Below are positions 16,849-63,836 of a stretch of 64,000 bases of DNA, one piece after another (position 1 is the stretch's first letter; the number at the start of each line of letters is the position of its first letter). Under the pieces are notes generated by a model that made no database searches, was not told the origin of the DNA, and saw nothing but the letters and a program-made list of their open reading frames with translations. The stretch covers positions 434,001 to 498,000 of the forward strand of contig NZ_VFOR01000001.1 of NCBI RefSeq assembly GCF_006716235.1, given 5' to 3'. Source of the DNA: Propioniferax innocua (GTDB lineage: Bacteria; Actinomycetota; Actinomycetes; Propionibacteriales; Propionibacteriaceae). A program made the translations under genes and the position numbers.

Positions 16849-18930
16849 GTGCCCAAAGCGACTGCGAAGAACAAGCCTGGCGGAGGTGACTACGAGGCCC
16901 GGCACCTGCTGGTGCTCGAAGGCCTCGAGGCCGTCCGCAAACGCCCCGCGATGTACATCGGATCCACCGACACTCGCGGCCTCATGCACTGCCTCTGGGA
17001 GATCATCGACAACGCCGTCGACGAAGCCCTCAGTGGTTTCGGCACCGAGATCGGTGTGACGCTGGAGAAGAACGGTGCGATCGTCGTCCGCGATCAGGCG
17101 CGTGGCATCCCCGTCGACAAAGAACCCAAGACCGGCCTGACCGGAGTCGAGGTCGTCTTCACCAAACTCCATGCCGGCGGCAAGTTCGGCGCCGGCTCCT
17201 ACAACGCCACCGGTGGTCTGCACGGCGTCGGCGCGTCGGTGGTCAATGCACTGTCATCACGCCTCGACGTACGTGTGGACCGCAACGGGGCCACACACGA
17301 GATGTCCTTCCGCCACGGTGTTCCCGGCGAGTTCGACGGCGACGGCCCCGACGCGAAATTCACCCCCGGCTCGAAGCTGCGCAAGACCGGCAAGATCGGA
17401 CGTGGCGTCACCGGAACCCGCGTCCGGTTCTGGCCCGATCCGCAGATCTTCGGACGCGACGCCACACTCAACCGTGACCTGCTCTCCGCACGCGCCCGTC
17501 AGACCAGCTTCCTGGTCCCCGGGCTCGCAATCACCATCCATGACGATCGTGGCGAGGAGCCCTTCACCGAAGAACATCGCCATGACGGCGGCATCAGCGA
17601 ATTCTGCGAATTCCTCGCCCCCGATCAAGCCGTGACCGACGTGGTCCGACTCCAAGGTACCGACAAATTCACCGAAACCGTCCCGATGCTTGACGATTCC
17701 GGATCGCTCACCCCCACCGATGTGGAGCGGGACCTGGAGATCGACATCGCCCTGCGCTGGGGAACCGGCTATGACACCGTCACCAAGTCGTTCGTGAACA
17801 TCATCGCCACACCCAAGGGCGGGACCCACGTGAACGGCTACGAGCGAGCACTCGGCAAAGCCGTCACCAAAGCCCTCGACGGCACACGTCTGCTCAAATC
17901 CGGAGAACAGGTCACCAAGGAGGATGCCCTCGAGGGCCTGACCTCGGTGGTCACCGTCCGACTGGCCGAACCACAGTTCGAAGGCCAGACCAAGGAGGTT
18001 CTCGGCACCCCGGCGGTCTCTCGACTGGTGGCATCGTGCGTCGAACGTGAGCTGGGGCGGTTCTTCACCTCGTCCAAGGCCGGGGTCAAGCAACAGGCAC
18101 GCACAGTGTTGGAGAAGAGTGTCGCCGCTGCTCGCACACGGGTGCAGGCACGTGCCCACAAGGAGGCCCAGCGTCGCAAGAACGCGCTGGAGAGCGCAAC
18201 GCTCCCCGCCAAGCTCAAGGACTGCCGCAGCAAGGACGTCGAACGTCGCGAACTGTTCATCGTGGAGGGCGACTCGGCTCTCGGAACCGCGATGTCGGCA
18301 CGAAGCTCCGAATTCCAGGCGTTGTTGCCCATCCGCGGCAAGATCCTCAACGTCCAGAAGGCTTCGGTCACCGACATGCTGAAGAACGCCGAGTGCGCTT
18401 CGATCATCCAAGTGGTCGGTGCCGGGTCGGGCCGTTCGTTCGATCTTGACGCCGCCCGCTACGGCAAGGTCATCTTCATGGCCGATGCCGACTCCGACGG
18501 TGCGCACATCCGCTGCCTGCTCGCGACGCTGTTCTTCCGATACATGCGCCCGCTGATCGAGGCCGGCCGCGTCTACAGCGCCGTACCTCCCCTGCACCGG
18601 TTCGAACTCACCAACCCGCGCAAGGGCATGGACAAGTACATCTACACGTACTCCGACGCCGAATATCAACGCAAGGCCGCCGAACTCACCAAGAAGAAAC
18701 TCAACTTCAAGGAGCCGCAGCGCTACAAGGGCCTGGGTGAAATGGACGCCGATCAGCTCGCGGACACCACCATGACCATGGGGCGGCGAACGCTGCGCCG
18801 CATCACGCTCGACGACGCTGAAGAGGCCGAGGGCGTGTTCGAGATGCTGATGGGAAACGATGTCGCTCCCCGCAAGGAGTTCATCGTCGATGGCGCCTAC
18901 CGCATCGACGCCGAGGCCATCGACGCCTGA
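16849..18930 (+). CDS. parE: DNA topoisomerase IV subunit B
   Basis: 693-aa ATPase subunit that pairs with ParC (4370) to decatenate and relax DNA. The GHKL ATPase part has EIIDNAVDEALSGFG near residue 50 and a GGLHGVGASVVNALS loop near 122. The TOPRIM part has EGDSALGTAMSARSSEFQAL near 470 and the metal-binding DADSDGAHI near 545. The C-terminal QRYKGLGEMDADQL is typical of GyrB/ParE. The length without an insertion and a separate ParC support topoisomerase IV. GTG at 16849 has a TAGGGT hexamer 6 nt upstream. A 17-bp inverted repeat follows the stop. Confidence 0.88.
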   Translation: MPKATAKNKPGGGDYEARHLLVLEGLEAVRKRPAMYIGSTDTRGLMHCLWEIIDNAVDEALSGFGTEIGVTLEKNGAIVVRDQARGIPVDKEPKTGLTGVEVVFTKLHAGGKFGAGSYNATGGLHGVGASVVNALSSRLDVRVDRNGATHEMSFRHGVPGEFDGDGPDAKFTPGSKLRKTGKIGRGVTGTRVRFWPDPQIFGRDATLNRDLLSARARQTSFLVPGLAITIHDDRGEEPFTEEHRHDGGISEFCEFLAPDQAVTDVVRLQGTDKFTETVPMLDDSGSLTPTDVERDLEIDIALRWGTGYDTVTKSFVNIIATPKGGTHVNGYERALGKAVTKALDGTRLLKSGEQVTKEDALEGLTSVVTVRLAEPQFEGQTKEVLGTPAVSRLVASCVERELGRFFTSSKAGVKQQARTVLEKSVAAARTRVQARAHKEAQRRKNALESATLPAKLKDCRSKDVERRELFIVEGDSALGTAMSARSSEFQALLPIRGKILNVQKASVTDMLKNAECASIIQVVGAGSGRSFDLDAARYGKVIFMADADSDGAHIRCLLATLFFRYMRPLIEAGRVYSAVPPLHRFELTNPRKGMDKYIYTYSDAEYQRKAAELTKKKLNFKEPQRYKGLGEMDADQLADTTMTMGRRTLRRITLDDAEEAEGVFEMLMGNDVAPRKEFIVDGAYRIDAEAIDA

Positions 18931-19064: not shown

Positions 19065-19916
19065 TCAGGAGATGAGCCCCTGCTCGACGAGAAACGTCCG
19101 GTAACGCGGCGGTTCCTCGTCGAGGATGTCCGGCACCTGCATGCGCGCGGCGATCAAACCGTTCGCAGCAGCACGCGTGTTGCCGAGTTCGTACTCACAC
19201 TCGCCGAGCCGCAGCTGCACATACGGGTTCTCCATGCCGCCGGGGGCCTGCGTCGCACGGAAGAAGGTGTCACGAGCCTCAGCCCACTGACCCTTGTCCA
19301 TATAGGCATCCCCCATGTGGGCGAGGAACCACATCGATCCGTCGGCTTCGCGTTCGTCTCCGAGAAGCCCGAGGGCACGCTGGCACAGGCCGATGGCGTC
19401 ATCCCAGCGCTCGGCATCCATCGCCTCCTGGAGTTCGGCGACAATCTGTTGGACTTGGGGAGCATCCACGTTCAACGGTTCTCCCGATGCGGGGCGCTCA
19501 CCACCCTGCGCGACAGCGATGTAGGACTCATCACGTCCGAAGGCAGACGGACCGAACTCGTCATACAGGGCAGCCAGAATCCGACGTCCCTCCTGCGCAT
19601 CGCCGGTCTCCCAGGCAAGGACGCCCCGATGGAAGCGCGTCGACGGATCCTCGACGCCATAGTGCTGCTCGAAGCGCGGCAGCCATCTCGTCGCGGCGTC
19701 CCACGCGTCAACGCGCTGGAAACTTCCCATCGCCCGATACACGAATCCCTGAAGGCGTTCGTCCGTCGCCGGATCCCCGGGGAACTCGTTCCAGGCACGG
19801 TCGAACACCTCGACCACGGCTGCTTGATCTCCGGCAGCCAGCGCCGCATCGAGCGTCGTGTCGAAATCACCGTCCACGACCCAGTCGGCCCACTCGTCGA
19901 ATGTGCTGAACGACAT
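19065..19916 (-). CDS. TPR-like protein, candidate immunity/antitoxin partner (copy 1)
   Basis: 283 aa, acidic, no signal peptide or membrane segment. Begins FSTFDEWADWVVDGDFDTTL and is rich in paired helices resembling tetratricopeptide repeats: WDDAIGLCQRALGLLGDE (~165), AHMGDAYMDKGQWAEARDTF (~195), LRLGECEYELGNTRAAANGL (~230). It is clearly homologous along its length to the protein at 20740-21612. It lies 32 bp after a GH-E-like nuclease gene, and its ATG has GAAGGGA upstream. An acidic partner directly behind a small nuclease gene suggests an immunity or antitoxin role; this is inference, as I know no named family for it. Confidence 0.7.
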   Translation of the reverse strand: MSFSTFDEWADWVVDGDFDTTLDAALAAGDQAAVVEVFDRAWNEFPGDPATDERLQGFVYRAMGSFQRVDAWDAATRWLPRFEQHYGVEDPSTRFHRGVLAWETGDAQEGRRILAALYDEFGPSAFGRDESYIAVAQGGERPASGEPLNVDAPQVQQIVAELQEAMDAERWDDAIGLCQRALGLLGDEREADGSMWFLAHMGDAYMDKGQWAEARDTFFRATQAPGGMENPYVQLRLGECEYELGNTRAAANGLIAARMQVPDILDEEPPRYRTFLVEQGLIS

Positions 19917-19948
19917 CGCTGTTTCCCTTCATCGCTGACAACAGAACG

Positions 19949-20617
19949 TTACGTGCCCGGCACATCGAGCACCCAGTCGCCCTCGGTCGGCATCGCGTCG
20001 GCGTATCTGGCGCGTTGGCTACCGCCGTTACGCCAGTTGTCGGGGCCATATTCGAAGATGTAGTTGTCCGCGTCGTGCATCCACGCCTTATTCGTCTCGG
20101 GCGGAAGCTTGTGACCCTTCGTGACCCAGTAATCCACAGCATCCTCGGGCATGTGCCCCATCGTGGCCTCGGTGAGATCACGCAGTTTGCCCGACTCGTC
20201 CTTCATGAACACCTTGCCGAGATCGTCGGCCACGAGGTCGCGGATGTTGCCGGCGTCATCCATGAACTTCTCGGGTTTGAGCTGACGCCCCATCGAGTCG
20301 TACAACAGCGCCGGCTTGCCGTTCGCGCCGACGGACTTACCCTGCAACATATTGCGCCAGATGCCCTGCGAGGTCTCCCCGATGGGTTTACCGGCACGCA
20401 CTGCGGCCTTCGGCGTCGCTGGATTGGGGCCGAGCAGATGCGACCGCAGTTTCTTCTTCTCCCAACGCGCGACATCGTCCAGATTGTCGGCGACGCGGCG
20501 TGCGACGTCGGCGATGTCATCGGTGTACTTCGCCAACTGCGACGGCACTTTGAAGAACTCACCGCAATGTTTGACGATGAAGCCACCGGCTCCCTTGATC
20601 ACGGTTGTCTTCGCCAC
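19949..20617 (-). CDS. GH-E / Endonuclease VII-like nuclease-domain protein (copy 1)
   Basis: 222 aa. The first ~28 residues (TTVIKGAGGFIVKHCGEFF) form a short hydrophobic segment shared with copy 2, and the middle is variable and basic. The C-terminal ~80 residues carry TMGHMPEDAVDYW, then HDADNYIFEYGPDNWRNGG and QRARY, ending in DVPGT. The spaced MGH...YW...NY..E pattern resembles the GH-E branch of the HNH/Endo VII nucleases found in polymorphic toxins. No secretion leader or LXG/WXG domain is visible. Start is GTG at 20617 with TAGTTT 6 nt upstream and no Shine-Dalgarno, so probably leaderless. Nuclease activity is not proven. Confidence 0.65.
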   Translation of the reverse strand: MAKTTVIKGAGGFIVKHCGEFFKVPSQLAKYTDDIADVARRVADNLDDVARWEKKKLRSHLLGPNPATPKAAVRAGKPIGETSQGIWRNMLQGKSVGANGKPALLYDSMGRQLKPEKFMDDAGNIRDLVADDLGKVFMKDESGKLRDLTEATMGHMPEDAVDYWVTKGHKLPPETNKAWMHDADNYIFEYGPDNWRNGGSQRARYADAMPTEGDWVLDVPGT

Positions 20618-20623
20618 GGGAAG

Positions 20624-20629
20624 AAACTA
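20624..20629 (-). promoter_or_regulatory. -10 hexamer TAGTTT for nuclease copy 1
   Basis: TAGTTT on the minus strand with exactly 6 nt before the GTG at 20617, the same spacing as in copy 2. Confidence 0.45.
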
Positions 20630-20739
20630 TCGGCGGAGAGCCGTGGTCACCCGCGCCATGCCGAGGAAAGATCCTCCCTGTGGTGTCCTGCCTCGGCACG
20701 GAGCGACCGAGCCCGTTCCAGAGCGCGTCGGTCGGTGTG

Positions 20740-21612
20740 TCAGGAATCGATGAGGCCCTGCTCCCGAAGGAACTTCAGATACTTCGGGGGTTCCTCGTCG
20801 AGGATGTCCGGAGCCTGCATGTATGCGGCGATCAGACCGTTGGCTGCCGGACGCTCGTTGCCGAGCTCGTACTCCGACTGGCCGAGACGGAGCTGGATGT
20901 ACGGGTTCTCCATACCACCGGGCACCTGTGTCGCCAGGGCGAACGTGTCCCGGGCCTCGGCCCACTGCTCCTGCTCCACGTAGGCGTCTCCCATGGTGCC
21001 CAGGAACCACATCGCCCCATCGGCGCTGCGTGGATCGCCCAGCAGGGACAGCCCTTCACGACACAGGCCGATGGCCTCATCCCAGCGCCCCGTGTCCATG
21101 GCGTCATTCACCTGTTCTGCAACGCCCTGGACGCGCGGATCATCCACCGACAACGCTTCGGCGTTCTCGGCCGCCACCGGCTCACCGGCAGGCGCCGACA
21201 CCTCCCCGCGCGCCACCGCTACGTAACCGGGATCGGGCAGGAAACCGTTGGGCCCGAAGTCCTCGTACAGCTTGGCCAACTCCGCTTGTCCGGCAACGGC
21301 ATCACCGGTGTTCCACGCGGTCACGCCGCGGTGGAACCGCACCGACGGCTCCTGCGCCCCGTAGAGCGTCGCCATGCGTGGCACCCAACGGGCTGACGCA
21401 TCCCACTGGCGGAGATCATGGAAGTGTCCCAGTGCGGAGGAGACGACCCCCTGCAGCCGCTGGTCATCGTGCTCGCCGGGGAATGATTCCCACGCCTCAT
21501 CGTGGAGTGCAACCACGCGGGCACCGTCTCGCGACTCCACCGCTTCGTCGAGCATCTCGTCGAACTCGTCGTCGATCCAGTCGGCCCAATCGTCGAAGGT
21601 CTCAAACCTCAT
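20740..21612 (-). CDS. TPR-like protein, candidate immunity/antitoxin partner (copy 2)
   Basis: 290-aa paralogue of the 19065-19916 protein. It shares the start FETFDDWADWIDDEFDEMLD, the central WDEAIGLCREGLSLLGDPR, the repeat pair GTMGDAYVEQEQWAEARDTF / RLGQSEYELGNERPAANGL, and the end PDILDEEPPKYLKFLREQGL. Strongly acidic. GGGAGG lies about 9 nt before the ATG, a good ribosome site. It is 54 bp behind nuclease copy 2, completing the duplicated pair. The function is unknown; its position suggests it neutralises its neighbour. Confidence 0.7.
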   Translation of the reverse strand: MRFETFDDWADWIDDEFDEMLDEAVESRDGARVVALHDEAWESFPGEHDDQRLQGVVSSALGHFHDLRQWDASARWVPRMATLYGAQEPSVRFHRGVTAWNTGDAVAGQAELAKLYEDFGPNGFLPDPGYVAVARGEVSAPAGEPVAAENAEALSVDDPRVQGVAEQVNDAMDTGRWDEAIGLCREGLSLLGDPRSADGAMWFLGTMGDAYVEQEQWAEARDTFALATQVPGGMENPYIQLRLGQSEYELGNERPAANGLIAAYMQAPDILDEEPPKYLKFLREQGLIDS

Positions 21613-21666
21613 GTGCCGTTCCTCCCACTTCTGTACTGCACCACGCGCCCAGCTCCGCCGAACATG

Positions 21667-22287
21667 CTAGGTCCCCGGCACATCCGCCGACCATGGTGGG
21701 ACAGGGTCGGCGTTGGTGTACACGTTGCGCTGCTTGCCACCGTTGCTCCAGTTGTCCGGCCCGTACTCGAAGAAGTAGTTGTCCGGGTCGTGCATCCACG
21801 CCTTGTTCGCGTCGGGCGGTGACTTGTAGCCGGTGGTCGTCCAGTAATCGACGGCGTCGACCGGGTAATGCCCCATCGTCGCCTTCGTCAGGTCGTGATG
21901 GTTGCCGGCCGCGTCCTTGATGTAGATCTTCTTGAGGTCCGCATCGCCGATCCTACGGATCGTACCGTCGGCATCCATGAACTTCTCGGGCTTCAGCGTC
22001 CGTCCCGACTTGGAGTACAACTCGCCGTCGTTGAGCATGCGCCGGAAGATCCCCTGCCCGGTGTCGCCGAGTTTGGTGGGGTTCTTGCCCAGATAATGCG
22101 AACGGAGCTTGCCGGTCTTGAAGTTCTTCCGGATGAACGTGTCCATGTCCGGTGTCTTCGCAAGCTTCTTGGCAACATCGGCGGCCTCGTCGAGATTTCC
22201 CACGAAGCTCTTGGGGATCCGGAAGTAGTCTCCGCAGTGCTTGACGATGAAGCCACCGACCCCTTTGAACACGGTGGTCTTCGGCAT
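21667..22287 (-). CDS. GH-E / Endonuclease VII-like nuclease-domain protein (copy 2)
   Basis: 206-aa paralogue of the 19949-20617 protein. Shared blocks are the N-terminal KTTVFKGVGGFIVKHCGDYF, LKPEKFMDADGTIR in the middle, and the C-terminal TMGHYPVDAVDYW ... HDPDNYFFEYGPDNWSNGG ... DVPGT. The basic middle (KNFKTGKLRSHYLGKNPTK) differs from copy 1. These invariant His, Tyr, Asn and Glu positions are the likely catalytic and metal-binding residues if this is a GH-E/Endo VII fold. ATG at 22287 has TAAATT 6 nt upstream and no Shine-Dalgarno. Neither copy looks truncated. Confidence 0.65.
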   Translation of the reverse strand: MPKTTVFKGVGGFIVKHCGDYFRIPKSFVGNLDEAADVAKKLAKTPDMDTFIRKNFKTGKLRSHYLGKNPTKLGDTGQGIFRRMLNDGELYSKSGRTLKPEKFMDADGTIRRIGDADLKKIYIKDAAGNHHDLTKATMGHYPVDAVDYWTTTGYKSPPDANKAWMHDPDNYFFEYGPDNWSNGGKQRNVYTNADPVPPWSADVPGT

Positions 22288-22386: not shown

Positions 22387-22878
22387 TCAGGCACGAACCA
22401 TGCGGAGATCGCGCGCCCCATCGTCACACGGGCGCTCCCCACCATCGAACTCGAAGCCGTGGCGCCGGTAGAACTCGATGGCCCACTCATCGGCTTCAGT
22501 CACCCACAGGTGAGCGGGAGCATCACCGATCGTGACGGTGATGAGATGATCTGCGACGCCAGTGTCCCGAGCGGGCTCGAGCACATGGAGGTGCCAGAGC
22601 TCAAGCGGCCCGGGGGCGTCCTCGTCCCGTGCTGTGCCGGCGCGGGAGAACCCGACGAGGGCGTCGCCCTCCCCGGTGTCGTAGACCACCCAGAAGTACG
22701 CCCCCATGAGCATGTCCTGCTCCCACGAGGCGATGCGTTCTGACATCTGCGGCTCATGCTCGACGGGGTGTTCCTCCCCTGCCGCATGCGCCTGCCGCCA
22801 CTCACGGACGAGCACATCGGCGATCTCCGGCAGATCGACGGGCGTCGCCTGCCGCACACGGAATCGTCCCGGCGCCAT
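22387..22878 (-). CDS. GNAT-family N-acetyltransferase
   Basis: 163 aa with a complete GNAT layout: N-terminal RVRQATPVDLPEIADVLVRE, central LWHLHVLEPARDTGVADHLI (a weak version of the acetyl-CoA loop), and C-terminal WAIEFYRRHGFEFDGGER. Substrate unknown. Its ATG overlaps the sigA stop by one base (TGATG), so its translation is probably coupled to sigA. Confidence 0.8.
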   Translation of the reverse strand: MAPGRFRVRQATPVDLPEIADVLVREWRQAHAAGEEHPVEHEPQMSERIASWEQDMLMGAYFWVVYDTGEGDALVGFSRAGTARDEDAPGPLELWHLHVLEPARDTGVADHLITVTIGDAPAHLWVTEADEWAIEFYRRHGFEFDGGERPCDDGARDLRMVRA

Positions 22879-24425
22879 CAGTCCAGATAATCTCGGAGAA
22901 CCTGTGAACGGCTCGGATGGCGCAGCTTCGACATCGTCTTCGACTCGATCTGGCGGATGCGCTCACGGGTCACGCCGTAGACCTTGCCGATCTCGTCGAG
23001 GGTCTTGGGCTGACCATCGGTGAGCCCAAAGCGCATCGACACCACACCGGCCTCACGCTCGGAGAGCGTGTCCAGCACATCGTGCAGCTGCTCCTGCAGC
23101 AACGTGAAACTGACCGCATCGGCCGGAACCACGGCCTCGGAGTCCTCGATGAGGTCGCCGAACTCCGAGTCTCCATCCTCACCCAGCGGGGTGTGCAGCG
23201 AGATCGGTTCACGACCGTACTTCTGCACCTCGACGACCTTCTCCGGGGTCATGTCGAGTTCCTCGGCCAGCTCCTCAGGCGTGGGCTCGCGGCCGAGATC
23301 CTGCAGCATCTGACGCTGCACACGCGCCAGCTTGTTGATGACCTCGACCATGTGCACCGGGATACGAATGGTGCGGGCCTGGTCGGCCATGGCACGCGTG
23401 ATGGCCTGCTTGATCCACCACGTGGCGTACGTGGAGAACTTGTAGCCCTTGGTGTAGTCGAACTTCTCGACCGCGCGGATCAGACCGAGGTTTCCCTCCT
23501 GGATGAGGTCCAGGAACAGCATGCCGCGACCGGTGTACCGCTTCGCGAGAGACACCACCAGACGAAGGTTCGCCTCGAGCAGGTGGTTCTTCGCCTCGCG
23601 TCCATCGGCCGCGATCCACTCGTAATCCTCGCGATGACTGGCTTTGACCTTCTTCTCGGGATCCGCCAACTGCTCTCCGGCGAACAGGCCTGCTTCGATT
23701 CGCTTGGCAAGATCGACTTCCTGCTCGGCGTTCAGCAGGGCAACCTTGCCGATCTGCTTCAGATAGTCCTTCACCGGGTCAGCGGTCGCACCAGCAACCA
23801 TGACCTGCTGCTCGGGCTCATCGGCGTCGTCGGTGTCGGAGAGAGAGAAGCCCTGCTCCTCGGTGAGCTTCTTCTCCTCCTCAGCCGTCTCCTCGGGCTT
23901 GAAGTCCTTCTCGTCGACATCGTCGAGCGTCCGCTTCTTGCCCACGGTCACGACCACATGGTCGCCCTCGATCTTGCCGGTCACCTTGCGGTTGACGAGG
24001 TCGTCGAGCACTTGCTCACGTGTGACCTCGTCCCCCACCTCGGGATCGATCGCCACCGTGGTCTTCTTCGCGGTCGACTTCTTTGCTGTCGTCGCCGCCT
24101 TCTTCGCCGCGGTGGTCTTCTTGGCGGCCGTCTTGGTGGCGGTCGCCGTGGCCTTCTTGGCCGCAGTCTTCTTCGCCGCCGTGGCCTTCTTCGCGGTCGT
24201 CTTCTTCGCCGTCGTCTTGGTGGAGGTCGCCGTGGCCTTCTTGGCCGCAGTCTTCTTCGCCGTCGACTTCGCCGCAGTGGTCTTTTTGGCTGCCGTCTTC
24301 GTGGCTGTCGTTTTCTTGGCTGCCGTCTTCTTGGCAGCTGCCGCCTTCTTCTTGGTCGTTGCTGAGGGCTTGGACTGCCCCGCGCTGGCCTCGGCGTCGG
24401 CGTTGTCCTTGGAAGTCGGCGTCAC
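22878..24425 (-). CDS. sigA: Primary RNA polymerase sigma factor
   Basis: 515 aa. Residues ~25-123 are a Lys/Ala/Thr low-complexity tract (repeated AAKKTTA-like units), as in several actinobacterial HrdB/SigA proteins. Region 1.2 starts near 205 ([20 protein letters not shown]), region 2 has [20 protein letters not shown] (core and -10 binding), and region 4 ends with [20 protein letters not shown] (-35 recognition). Start GTG at 24425 with AGAGGT just upstream. A TTGACA lies at 24478-24473 on the same strand, but no convincing -10 was found. The GNAT gene overlaps its stop. Confidence 0.93.
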
Positions 24426-60968: not shown

Positions 60969-61273
60969 GTAGTAGGGCTCCGATTGTGGGACTGTGAACT
61001 TGGACTTAGACGCACCGCAGCCAGAGTAAAAGTCGCTGAACGTGGACATCACGGCAATCTGAACCGCCAAGCCGCACGATGAGATCGACGCCTACACGCA
61101 TACCCTGCTCTTCGAGAGTCGCAGGCCACAGTGCTTGGACAGCGTAACCCGCTTCACCCCACGTGGTCAACGTCCGCGATGATCGCCACTCGACCGCGAT
61201 CCGGAGAGTTCCGGCGCGATCATCTTCAGCCGTCCGGTCTCGAGCTCCTAATGTCACGAGCGTGGAGAACCGG
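60969..61273. other. 305-bp divergent spacer between rpsA and the YbaB-like gene
   Basis: Holds the leftward rpsA control region (a TACTCT at 61028-61023 is a weak -10 candidate) and the rightward TAATGT promoter at 61249. No gene or repeat is evident. Confidence 0.5.
61249..61254 (+). promoter_or_regulatory. -10 hexamer TAATGT for the YbaB-like/hydrolase operon
   Basis: TAATGT 19 nt before ATG 61274, leaving a ~13-nt leader that contains GTGGAG. This argues against the longer frame from 61163. Confidence 0.45.
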
Positions 61274-61717
61274 ATGACCCAAGCCCTGCGTGACTCGGCA
61301 GCGACACTCACAGACCCTTCCGACCGCCCCGAGGGGTCGGCGGCACAGGCCGCTGGAAAGCCTCTCGAACGCGTGGACGTGAGCGTCGATGCGTCGAGCG
61401 GACATGGCGATGTGCGCGTCACCGTGCGCAATGCCCGACTGACGAGCTGCGTCATCACCGATTCGGCTCTCACACTCGACGCCGAGGCCATCGGCAACCT
61501 GGTGTGCGAGGCCGTCAACGCCGCCATGGTCGACTACGAGGCCAAGACCATCGAGGCGTTCCAGGCACAGCAGGGTACCGACATGGCCGAGGTGCAGCGC
61601 CAGCTCGACGCGGCCAGCCGAGAGGCCGAGCGTGGCATGCAGGAGTACCTGGATCAGCTGCGCGCTCTTGTGGACAAGACCAAGACCCGTACATCGCACG
61701 CCCCGAAGAATTCCTGA
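61274..61717 (+). CDS. YbaB/EbfC-like small protein
   Basis: 147 aa. The central VRVTVRNARLTSCVITDSAL and LVCEAVNAAMVDYEAKTIEA resemble YbaB-like nucleoid or ESX-accessory folds, and the last ~40 residues form a coiled helix (EVQRQLDAASREAERGMQEY). No signal peptide. It is 16 bp before the transglycosylase gene and likely co-transcribed. Similar small proteins precede WXG100/ESX cargo in actinobacteria; role unproven. Confidence 0.6.
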   Translation: MTQALRDSAATLTDPSDRPEGSAAQAAGKPLERVDVSVDASSGHGDVRVTVRNARLTSCVITDSALTLDAEAIGNLVCEAVNAAMVDYEAKTIEAFQAQQGTDMAEVQRQLDAASREAERGMQEYLDQLRALVDKTKTRTSHAPKNS

Positions 61718-61733
61718 GCCAGGAGAGCTAGCC

Positions 61734-62585
61734 ATGGACTTTTCCATCAATCCCGAAGGTATTCACCGCTCCGCGATGGAGCTCTCCGACGGACTCGGCG
61801 AGCTCACCAACCACGTCGAGCAGTTCGCCAGCAGCTTCAATCTGGGCGACATGTTCGGCGACAACTCGCTACTCGCCGAGATCGGGAACCCGATGTACCT
61901 CGGCGCTGTGGATTGGATCCTCCAGTGCCTGCGTTCCCTGGAAGGTGCGCTGGGTGACCATGCAGGCGCCCTCGGTGCCGCCGCCACAGCATTCCAGCGG
62001 ACCGAGGAGACGAACGCCGCAATGTCTCATCAGATCATGTCTTCGGGCCCGTTCGCCCCGGCACCGAGCCCGGCCCCCATGCCCGCTCCCGAGCCAGCCC
62101 CTGCGCCGGAATCGAGCCCTGAACCGGAATCGAACTCTGCACCGGAATCGGCCCCTGCATCTGCCCCCGCATCCACCGGTGGGGACGGCGGTTCACTGCC
62201 CGGCGGAGAGATCACCTATGAGGCCACCCCGGAAGTGAAGCAGTGGATCGGCGAAGCACGTCAGATCATGATCGCTGACGGCATCGACCCCTCCCTCATC
62301 AACGCCAACGATCTGGCGATCATCGCGATGCATGAGTCCGGCGGTGACCCGAACGCCGCGAATGACTGGGATATCAACGCGCAGAACGGCACCCCTTCGA
62401 TCGGACTGATGCAGACCATCGGCCCCACGTTCGATGCCCATGCAATGCCCGGACACACCGACATCCATAATCCGGTCGACAACATCATCGCCGCGTCCCG
62501 CTACGCGATCGACCGATACGGGTCGGTCTCCGCCACTCCCGGCCCCGCCTCGGTGAACAGCGGTGGCCCCTACCTGCCCTACTGA
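61734..62585 (+). CDS. WXG-like N-terminus fused to a lytic transglycosylase (SLT) domain
   Basis: 283 aa. Residues 1-100 form a helical hairpin of the WXG100/ESX-cargo kind (GIHRSAMELSDGLGELTNHV, LEGALGDHAGALGAAATAFQ). A ~60-residue Pro/Ala/Glu linker follows. The C-terminal SLT domain has the catalytic glutamate in AIIAMHESGGDPNAANDWDI, then GTPSIGLMQTIGPTFDAHAM and ASRYAIDRYGS. No Sec signal peptide, so type VII export is plausible. AGGAGA lies before the ATG at 61734. The enzyme would cut peptidoglycan glycan strands. Confidence 0.75.
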   Translation: MDFSINPEGIHRSAMELSDGLGELTNHVEQFASSFNLGDMFGDNSLLAEIGNPMYLGAVDWILQCLRSLEGALGDHAGALGAAATAFQRTEETNAAMSHQIMSSGPFAPAPSPAPMPAPEPAPAPESSPEPESNSAPESAPASAPASTGGDGGSLPGGEITYEATPEVKQWIGEARQIMIADGIDPSLINANDLAIIAMHESGGDPNAANDWDINAQNGTPSIGLMQTIGPTFDAHAMPGHTDIHNPVDNIIAASRYAIDRYGSVSATPGPASVNSGGPYLPY

Positions 62586-62630
62586 CCGCGTTCGAATCAC
62601 CACATCTGACACAACTTTCGGAGGACACTC

Positions 62631-63836
62631 ATGTTTGACATCGGTGGAATGATCGATGACGCGGCGGGCAACATCGGCGGCATGGTTGACGACGCCATCG
62701 ACGATTTCGGCGGCACCATCAGCAATGCCGCTGACGACTTCTTCGACGGCGGCGGCATGGACGCTCTGTCCGGCCCCATCGGCGGTGCCCTGGACACAGC
62801 CGTCGATGTGTTCGGCCTGGGTGCGCCGAACGTCAACGAGAACGCACTGACCAGCGCGGCGCACGGCTGGACCTCGTTGGGCGACCACATCTCCGAGGCC
62901 CTTGACGTCGGCTCCCACGTGAGCCGGTCCGTCGCCGATGGGAACATCGGCCAGAGCATCACCAGCTTCCTCGACGCTTTCGGCGGCCGCCCGAACAGCC
63001 CGCTTCCGGGCGGCGACATGCTCGTGCAGGGCGTGGACGCCGTCGCGGGTGGGCTCTTCGGTGCAGCCGGTGCCTCACACGCCGCCAAGCTTACGGCCGT
63101 GATCCAAGGTGTCCAGTACGCCTCCAAGGTGCAGCAGGCGATCGCGGCGGCTCCCGCCACCGGCGGCCAGTCACTGACGCTGATCCCGGGCTTCCGCGAG
63201 TTGGCGGCGGGCAATGTGCAGGGCGCAATCGCCACAGCCGCACAGTTCCTCGACGGCGGTTCCTCCGGCCCGGTTCACGGACTTCTCGGCGAACTGTTGC
63301 AGGGAACCGGACTCGTCGACCGCCTGGGTGGCCAAGCGCCGACCGCTCCGCCGGCCGGCGGAGCACCTGCACCGACGCCCGCTCCCGGAGTGGCACCTGC
63401 TCCCTCCGCTCCCCCTTCGGGCGGGGGCGGTGACGTCGACGGCCTCGTCCAGAGCTACTTGGACCGCCACATCCCCTACGCCTGGGGTGGCGGGCATGGC
63501 GCAGAACCCGGACCGACGCAGGGCGTCTCGGACGGCGGTGGCCCTGCCGATGCACAAGGTGACTACAACAAGACCGGTCTCGACTGCTCCGGCCTCGCCC
63601 GCGAGTTCCTGTGGCAACAGAAGGGCATCGACATCGGCGCCGGGTCGACCCACACCACGATCAACCAGGGAACGCCCGTCTCCGAGGCGGATCTGCAACC
63701 CGGCGACCTCGTCTATCCGAATCCCGACCACGTGCAGGTCTACATCGGTGACGGTGAGGTCCTGGAGGCTCCCCAGTCCGGTGAATACGTGAAAGTCTCC
63801 CCCTACGCCGGAGGCGAGCTGCGTCGCTACGAGTGA
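62631..63836 (+). CDS. NlpC/P60 endopeptidase with long Gly/Ala-rich N-terminus
   Basis: 401 aa. The first ~250 residues are a Gly/Ala/Asp-rich helical region (FDIGGMIDDAAGNIGGMVDD). A Pro/Ala linker leads to the NlpC/P60 domain. Its catalytic Cys is in GLDCSGLAREFLW near residue 318, and His in NPDHVQVYIGDGEVLEAPQS near 375. The fold cuts peptidoglycan stem peptides. No Sec signal peptide; like its neighbour it looks like type VII cargo. TCGGAGGACACTC lies before the ATG, so it is well translated. Confidence 0.78.
   Translation: MFDIGGMIDDAAGNIGGMVDDAIDDFGGTISNAADDFFDGGGMDALSGPIGGALDTAVDVFGLGAPNVNENALTSAAHGWTSLGDHISEALDVGSHVSRSVADGNIGQSITSFLDAFGGRPNSPLPGGDMLVQGVDAVAGGLFGAAGASHAAKLTAVIQGVQYASKVQQAIAAAPATGGQSLTLIPGFRELAAGNVQGAIATAAQFLDGGSSGPVHGLLGELLQGTGLVDRLGGQAPTAPPAGGAPAPTPAPGVAPAPSAPPSGGGGDVDGLVQSYLDRHIPYAWGGGHGAEPGPTQGVSDGGGPADAQGDYNKTGLDCSGLAREFLWQQKGIDIGAGSTHTTINQGTPVSEADLQPGDLVYPNPDHVQVYIGDGEVLEAPQSGEYVKVSPYAGGELRRYE

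Follow-up and report, generated by a model that had tools for sequence, protein, structure and literature searches.

CpnT, together with EsxE/EsxF, combines a WXG100_2-type front domain and a toxin in one fused polypeptide, and the cargo effectors of the type VI secretion system (T6SS) that use adaptors pick in trans a carrier through a short part of their own. The genes considered here are two paralogous pairs, each of a toxin-like gene and a tetratricopeptide repeat (TPR) gene, listed among the open reading frames in tandem on the minus strand (positions 19065-22287) of a 64,000-nucleotide stretch of the Propioniferax innocua genome (contig NZ_VFOR01000001.1, positions 434,001 to 498,000), hereafter the window. 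We regard them, with a probability of about 0.6, as genes of secreted antibacterial nuclease-type toxins and their TPR immunity proteins, cargo of a split polymorphic-toxin system of the type VII secretion system (T7SS) in which an N-terminal tag of the toxin docks on a carrier complex. A little less firmly, on the favourable side of even, we propose that this tag of ~23 residues is recognised in trans by a dedicated WXG100_2/ESX carrier, and that one chromosomal carrier exports unlinked toxins of differing activity from all over the genome, each with its own immunity gene, including the TPR type against the GH-E-like nuclease. Such a system would resemble CpnT in that a secreted toxin is served by a WXG100_2-type front domain with ESX partners, but CpnT is one chain; it would resemble the T6SS cargo effectors by carrier choice in trans via a short part, but their secretion machine is unrelated.

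The closest described systems differ from this locus in instructive ways. In the PEST cassettes of Mycobacterium prophages an ESX-like protein, a toxin with a WXG-type delivery domain and an immunity gene are likewise present, and delivery type and toxin domain recombine; in that account the WXG domain and the toxin form one chain (PMC10654092), whereas here the domain has a gene of its own, the toxin retains only a short tag, and carrier and cargo are unlinked in some genomes. The MSE-ExT effectors of the Streptococcus suis T7SSb are alike in lacking the usual delivery domain, in sharing a conserved segment at the N-terminus ahead of varied toxin domains and in being exported by a distant core, but they belong to a Bacillota T7SSb with EssC and their export needs MapC2/EIC-CR (PMC12558993), while the core here is of the EccC type. 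They appear to be the closest published idea, the likeness of the N-terminal markers being one of description; a standalone WXG100_2 carrier matched to a tag type is not described in the available portions of that article, whose discussion states cargo recognition by the T7SSb as an open question (PMC12558993). Tox-GH-E (PF14410) shares the GH and N motif residues with the present toxins, gives a weak profile and hhalign match, and has the T7SS among its listed routes, but its terminal SH..E is absent here and the immunity partners listed for it in the 2012 survey are Imm-SuFu and Imm-ank, against a TPR protein here; in the survey sections available, TPR repeats occur fused to immunity domains or as toxin repeats and not as a GH-E immunity protein (PMC3482391). 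A TPR immunity protein was not found in the accessible parts of PMC6627406 and PMC8546572 either, and among the matches listed for openly licensed PubMed Central papers, searched by titles and abstract openings, none described tagged toxins paired with a standalone WXG100_2 carrier.

The two pairs have the layout that a sequence-only reading of the window had described, namely 206-222 amino acid (aa) proteins followed by TPR-like proteins of ~285 aa. All four genes were accepted by a gene caller that scores codon usage after training on known genes, the toxins are 57% and the TPR proteins 60% identical to each other, the paralogue similarity is beyond chance (E 3e-64 and 1e-34) and both toxins end in DVPGT. 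A third toxin/TPR pair lies elsewhere in the same genome (G000 in our set, in which the window is G000:C1:434001-498000), at G000:C1:865155.

At the N-terminus of the window toxins, ~23 residues follow the consensus K-x-G-x-GFIVKHCG-x-FF-[RK]-x-P, and this tag is common to proteins with other C-terminal parts. A DNA pattern for GFIVKHCG had four exact matches in the own genome, three of them in the GH-E-like toxins and one in L016, a protein of 337 aa whose different end has no family assignment; two more had three mismatches, the control giving 0. The tag profile, searched over a family sample of 147 Propionibacteriaceae genomes including the own one, gave ten matches with E<1e-8 in five genomes (five in G000, two in G002, one each in G014, G028 and G055); the next had an E of 0.011, from which value upward matches were treated as noise. 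The five tagged proteins of the own genome are the three GH-E-like toxins, L016 and a papain-fold toxin (L164) with GFIVKMLKDFFRTP (Gln_amidase 36.9 bits, cut-off 24.1). L164 and the two proteins of G002, one of them apparently frameshifted, are new finds of the profile. The beginning of these toxins is mostly basic: over the first 32 residues, the net charge of 27 toxins linked to an operon averages +4.6 (at least +3 in 20/27; range -2 to +9) and that of 9 unlinked ones +4.8 (at least +3 in 9/9), the remainder having about +0.5 per 32 residues. The suspicion of the sequence-only reading that this segment could be a delivery element thus gains support from its sharing across C-terminal parts, as well as from its match to a carrier clade and its correlation with the carrier, both described below. 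L016 itself (L016:8789-10282; G000:C1:561.8 kb) has an EAKGG motif in its C-terminal part and a 154 aa neighbour without Pfam match, with which it possibly forms a new toxin/immunity pair. Some tagged or carrier-linked toxin genes are apparently frameshifted or broken (L139 in G002:C353, L095 in G055:C7, L025 in G111:C6), which suggests the decay of some such toxins.

The connection with the T7SS comes from the relatives of the pairs. Fourteen intact toxin copies were compiled (the two of the window, L015, L017, which is L001, L018, L019, L020, L021, L022, L023, L024, L061, L062 and L063), the broken copy L025 being kept out. Seven of them (L019, L020, L021, L022, L061, L062 and L063) stand in an operon of the order YbaB-like, ESX-like, WXG100_2, toxin, TPR, with -4 to +3 nucleotides (nt) between carrier and toxin genes, and an eighth, L024, has another order (toxin, N half of the TPR protein, its C half, ESX-like, WXG100_2, YbaB-like); the six others, including the window pairs, have no adjoining carrier. 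The ESX-like protein has ~105 aa and, in 9/9 partners checked, a YxxxE near its C-terminus. The standalone WXG100_2 protein (PF25547) has ~160 aa and scored above the cut-off of 27 bits in the four carriers scanned (L020 50, L021 42.6, L037 32.3, L024 45). PF02575 YbaB was above cut-off in L037, L020 and the window gene at 61262, and was assigned in the other operons by position and resemblance. No WXG/LXG-type delivery domain was reported by Pfam in the scanned toxins themselves, which have 156-239 aa (337 aa in L016). The own genome, in which T7SS core genes were scored, encodes EccC (700.7 bits, cut-off 346.55) and EccB (234, cut-off 154), and has a WXG100_2/ESX-like/YbaB carrier module at C2:252655, beside a gene read as obgE and with no toxin adjoining. 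Over the family sample, WXG100_2 is above cut-off in 26/147 genomes, among them all 9 toxin genomes (hypergeometric 4.5e-8, kinship ignored).

The position behind the carrier is not reserved to one toxin. Forty stretches around WXG100_2 matches were gene-called and yielded 37 standalone carriers. Leaving aside the YbaB-like gene and a gene read as prmC, 28 of them are followed on the same strand by a gene no more than 100 nt away; in two of these 28 (L113 and L117) that gene is not toxin-like. Five of seven non-GH-E proteins scanned from this slot were above Pfam cut-offs and represent four toxin families: Endonuclea_NS_2 (87.3 and 91.1 bits), DNase_NucA_NucB (73.6), Ntox30 (79.6) and Tox-REase-5 (51.1). 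A YwqJ-deaminase was slightly below (23.6 against 25.9) and the slot protein of L083 had no toxin match above cut-off. The presence of several known toxin domains in one slot therefore makes it a polymorphic-toxin slot, with a shared N-terminal part, exchangeable toxin domains and immunity neighbours, the latter recognised by family for the TPR proteins and for one SUKH-1 protein only (26.1 against 25.4, after the NucA/NucB toxin).

Tags and carriers are distributed together. In a tree of the 37 carriers, one clade (support 0.85) consists of exactly G000, G002, G014, G028 and G055, that is of the five family genomes with strong tag matches, and the same clade returned (support 0.846) when the tree was enlarged to 45 sequences by six loci and two weaker ones; neither tree includes some WXG100_2 matches (G033, G101 and several large fused proteins). 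The extra tag genome, G002, is also the only other genome with this carrier clade, for which our own arithmetic gives 1 in 143, or 1 in 22 among the genomes with WXG100_2 over cut-off. Carrier and tagged toxin share one operon in G028, and the clade carrier has no adjoining tagged toxin in G000, G014 and G055; in G002 the two are likely separate as well. Across operons the tag type goes with the carrier: beside one carrier clade, GH-E and NucA/NucB toxins have a tag type in common, and another type is common to a nuclease and the deaminase-like toxins. Similarity of the first 32 residues was compared with carrier similarity over pairs of different toxin class, with residues 41-72 as control, 2000 permutations, and L113 and L117 left out for their non-toxin-like neighbour. 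The correlation was 0.31 (rho; 4/2000) with 20 collapsed rows, the control giving 0.06 (474/2000) with the same 20 rows and 0.02 (768/2000) with 27. When same-class pairs were included, the tag reached rho 0.33, 0.29 and 0.24 at 20, 27 and 29 rows (0, 0 and 4 of 2000).

In the mechanism that we propose, the delivery domain, which in PEST proteins stands in front of the toxin within one chain, would here be a separate WXG100_2 protein of ~165 aa, made together with an ESX-like partner of ~100 aa bearing the YxxxE signal, and the toxin would retain just a short basic N-terminal tag, here of the GFIVKxxxxFFRxP type. The tag would dock on the carrier complex, the T7SS would recognise the carrier via the YxxxE of the partner, and the toxin would travel along, the single module on G000:C2 serving all five scattered tagged proteins of that genome. 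In the producer and its kin, the TPR protein would bind and silence the nuclease domain.

It is rather unlikely, in our estimate, that the system is one of secreted toxins and immunity proteins in which the tag binds the ESX-like partner, the YbaB-like protein or EccC instead of WXG100_2. The genes of the carrier operon travel together, and co-variation cannot for that reason decide whether the tag docks on WXG100_2 or on one of its operon partners. What speaks for WXG100_2 is that its gene directly precedes the toxin in the five-gene operons and that, in the description available, PEST proteins carry a domain of the WXG type in one chain with the toxin (PMC10654092).

Several results weigh against a split secretion system as we describe it. 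The ESX-like partners scanned are below Pfam cut-offs (no match for that of L022; EspC 17.4 against 23.5 for that of L037), and in the own genome EccE (90, cut-off 108) and mycosin (235, cut-off 278.75) are below NCBIfam cut-offs, while a second WXG100_2 domain over cut-off lies within a 423 aa protein at C4:52723. Four of the five tag genomes supplied sequences to the tag profile, so that the independent finds are the genome G002 and the protein L164. The separation of carrier and toxins in G002 is not certain because carrier and tags are on short separate contigs: the carrier contig, of 4437 bases, stops about 70 bases past the ESX-like gene, and one of the toxins is near a contig end. The tag/carrier correlation over different classes falls to rho 0.19 (21/2000) at 27 rows and to 0.13 (128/2000) at all 29 rows, which include L113 and L117. 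Once same-class pairs count, the control correlates too (rho 0.15, 89/2000; 0.21 with 27 rows, 3/2000), as is expected from the shared toxin domain, and genome relatedness is still contained in every tag/carrier and co-occurrence test. Of the 13 genomes with the TPR family, 4 have no toxin (G037, G053, G070 and G084), and the toxin model is poor, so that the nuclease fold is structurally no more than putative (see below).

The C-terminal domain of the toxins is probably a distant relative of Tox-GH-E, to judge from its sequence. Across 11 aligned copies, three from the own genome and eight from elsewhere, G139-H140, W149, N170-Y171, N179 and G183 are invariant, and G139, H140 and N179, present in 11/11 rows, are the GH and N motif residues of Tox-GH-E. 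All 14 intact copies were scanned with Pfam: PF14410 matched 10 of them at 11.8-24.7 bits, all below the cut-off of 25, both window toxins, L015 and L019 being without match. A search of the class genomes with PF14410 gave matches in 4/296 and none in the own genome, and three of these four finds served as true GH-E domains for comparison. With them, hhalign aligned the toxin family over 47 columns with a probability of 89.8% (E 1.8e-6). The terminal SH..E is kept in all three (H88, E91), whereas the toxin family has NRSxG, NQ or NW, with no corresponding H afterwards; in view of this absence the toxins are called GH-E-related and not Tox-GH-E. The GH-E identity proposed from sequence alone therefore stands as a distant relation of the family, while the profile search for it gave no Pfam match for the window pair; for the window toxins Pfam, NCBIfam and PADLOC scans yielded nothing useful, and a Protein Data Bank sequence search with the toxin profile had no match. 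An AlphaFold2 (AF2) model of toxin 1 from a three-row alignment reached a mean predicted local distance difference test score (pLDDT) of 54, with about 30 for the putative nuclease domain; it shows strands at residues 4-24, where blocks reach pLDDT 67-77, but we did not rely on them.

The toxin family is present in 9/147 family genomes and in 12/391 genomes of a second survey, and in view of this sparse distribution a housekeeping role for the pairs was rejected. A search for related loci among genome contigs gave one relative, in Enemella, and a class-wide search with the toxin profile (394 genomes, E up to 1e-6) gave G617 alone besides the own genome. In G617 a protein of 1297 aa has a GH-E-like end, and the next gene encodes 230 aa not read as TPR.

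The partner gene is a TPR protein by several indications. Pfam reported TPR_19 in TPR protein 2 with 43.3 bits (cut-off 25), and several TPR matches in TPR protein 1, all sub-cut-off (best TPR_2, 23.8 against 27). The AF2 model of the latter is TPR-like, with two helical halves and a mean pLDDT of 87; its disordered linker (142-151) is near the point where the TPR gene is split in L018 and L024, the partner being divided into two open reading frames in L017, L018 and L024. The TPR gene is next after the toxin in 14/14 intact copies, which answers the co-occurrence survey suggested from the sequence-only reading, and the TPR family, found in 13/147 family genomes (E up to 1e-6), includes 9/9 toxin genomes; three of the four toxin-less genomes match in the C-terminal half only. 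In one locus (L114) the TPR gene comes after the carrier with a gap of 217 nt that holds, by our own reading, an apparent remnant of a toxin start. Similarity of the toxin C-terminal parts and of the TPR proteins goes together (rho 0.78, 11 pairs, 0/5000 permutations, genome kinship ignored). The constant TPR neighbour and this co-variation therefore suit an immunity protein, and the TPR protein is likely the immunity protein of the adjacent toxin. The toxin-immunity module suspected earlier is thus supported by its context, to which relatives in T7SS operons beside known polymorphic-toxin types also belong, a T7SS link that was absent from that reading. Two of the true GH-E genes of the class genomes (L165 and L167) have an ankyrin protein as next gene. 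A TPR-family gene in G014 (L184, G014:C5:69.7 kb) is convergent with a gene for a 229 aa protein with a basic N-terminus and, by our own reading, a WHH-like end, and has a 167 aa neighbour.

That the window toxins are orphan cargo relics, derived from such operons, no longer exported here and kept with their partners as addictive or neutral genes, seems improbable to us. The six of 14 copies without adjoining carrier, the window ones among them, would fit such an origin, as would the existence of decayed copies (L025 and, by our own reading, the L114 gap). The own genome, on the other side, encodes T7SS core genes and a carrier module standing alone, and five of its open frames carry the tag ahead of differing C-terminal parts; the preservation of the tag across unrelated toxin domains suggests its use. 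Less probable still is a toxin-antitoxin or phage-defence module that acts inside the cell and has no connection with secretion: the two-gene pairs, toxin first and TPR second, and their direct neighbours in the window, which are not secretion genes, would be compatible with it, but no PADLOC match was obtained at E up to 1, homologous pairs are found inside T7SS operons and the tag matches a T7SS carrier clade, so that the plain toxin-antitoxin reading was rejected. A fusion of carrier and toxin made by frameshifting at overlapping stop and start codons, the split being only apparent, could draw on the common 1 or 4 nt overlaps of the two genes but is hardly credible with the own-genome carrier and toxins on different contigs (C2 and C1) and with clade carriers in G014 and G055 that have no adjoining tagged toxin.

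If the split T7SS system is real, a transferable short tag with matching carrier types would separate the 'address' from the 'warhead' and would explain how small stand-alone toxins distant from secretion genes could be exported. One carrier could then serve several different toxins, T7SS toxins of Actinomycetota that have escaped notice could be sought simply by their tag, and GH-E-like nucleases would have one more type of immunity protein, the TPR protein.

Table 1. Features of the toxin/TPR pairs and of a neighbouring operon, in window coordinates
Feature	Position	Strand	Description and basis
Toxin 1	21667..22287	(-)	206 aa; N-terminal GFIVKHCG tag and GH-E-related, HNH/Endo VII-like C-terminal domain (predicted); open reading frame, relatives, alignment, hhalign
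Tag of toxin 1, residues 1-23	22219..22287	(-)	Common to proteins with other C-terminal parts; DNA pattern and profile search
TPR protein 1, predicted immunity protein of toxin 1	20740..21612	(-)	290 aa; sub-cut-off Pfam TPR matches, AF2, co-occurrence
Toxin 2, paralogue of toxin 1	19949..20617	(-)	222 aa, GTG start
Tag of toxin 2, residues 1-23	20549..20617	(-)	DNA pattern and profile search
TPR protein 2, predicted immunity protein of toxin 2	19065..19916	(-)	283 aa; Pfam TPR_19 43.3 bits
T7SS-type neighbour operon, separate from the pairs	61262..63836	(+)	YbaB-like 61262-61717; ESX-like and SLT transglycosylase 61734-62585; WXG100_2-like and NlpC/P60 62631-63836

The pairs (Table 1) had been placed between parE and sigA, which agrees with Pfam assignments of the flanks to the DNA gyrase B family (16849-18930) and to sigma-70 (22878-24425), a GNAT acetyltransferase gene (22387-22878) separating the sigma factor gene from the pairs. 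The T7SS-type neighbour operon of the window encodes peptidoglycan hydrolases: an N-terminus that is ESX-like by our own reading is fused to the SLT transglycosylase (36.7 bits), and a WXG100_2-like N-terminus, detected by a custom hidden Markov model and not reported by Pfam, to the NlpC/P60 domain (49.9 bits). The T7SS core region of the same genome also contains a candidate large fused effector of 685 aa (L045:5137-7194, G000:C1 about 1.279 Mb), with a WXG100-like start by our own reading and no NCBIfam match. In four further genomes (L104 in G047, L106 in G063, L107 in G089 and L110 in G006), a standalone carrier is followed by another toxin-like class with its own tag and an NLIWAxNAxHSxANA-like motif near the end, and neighbours of ~183 aa stand beside these genes in L104, L107 and L110.

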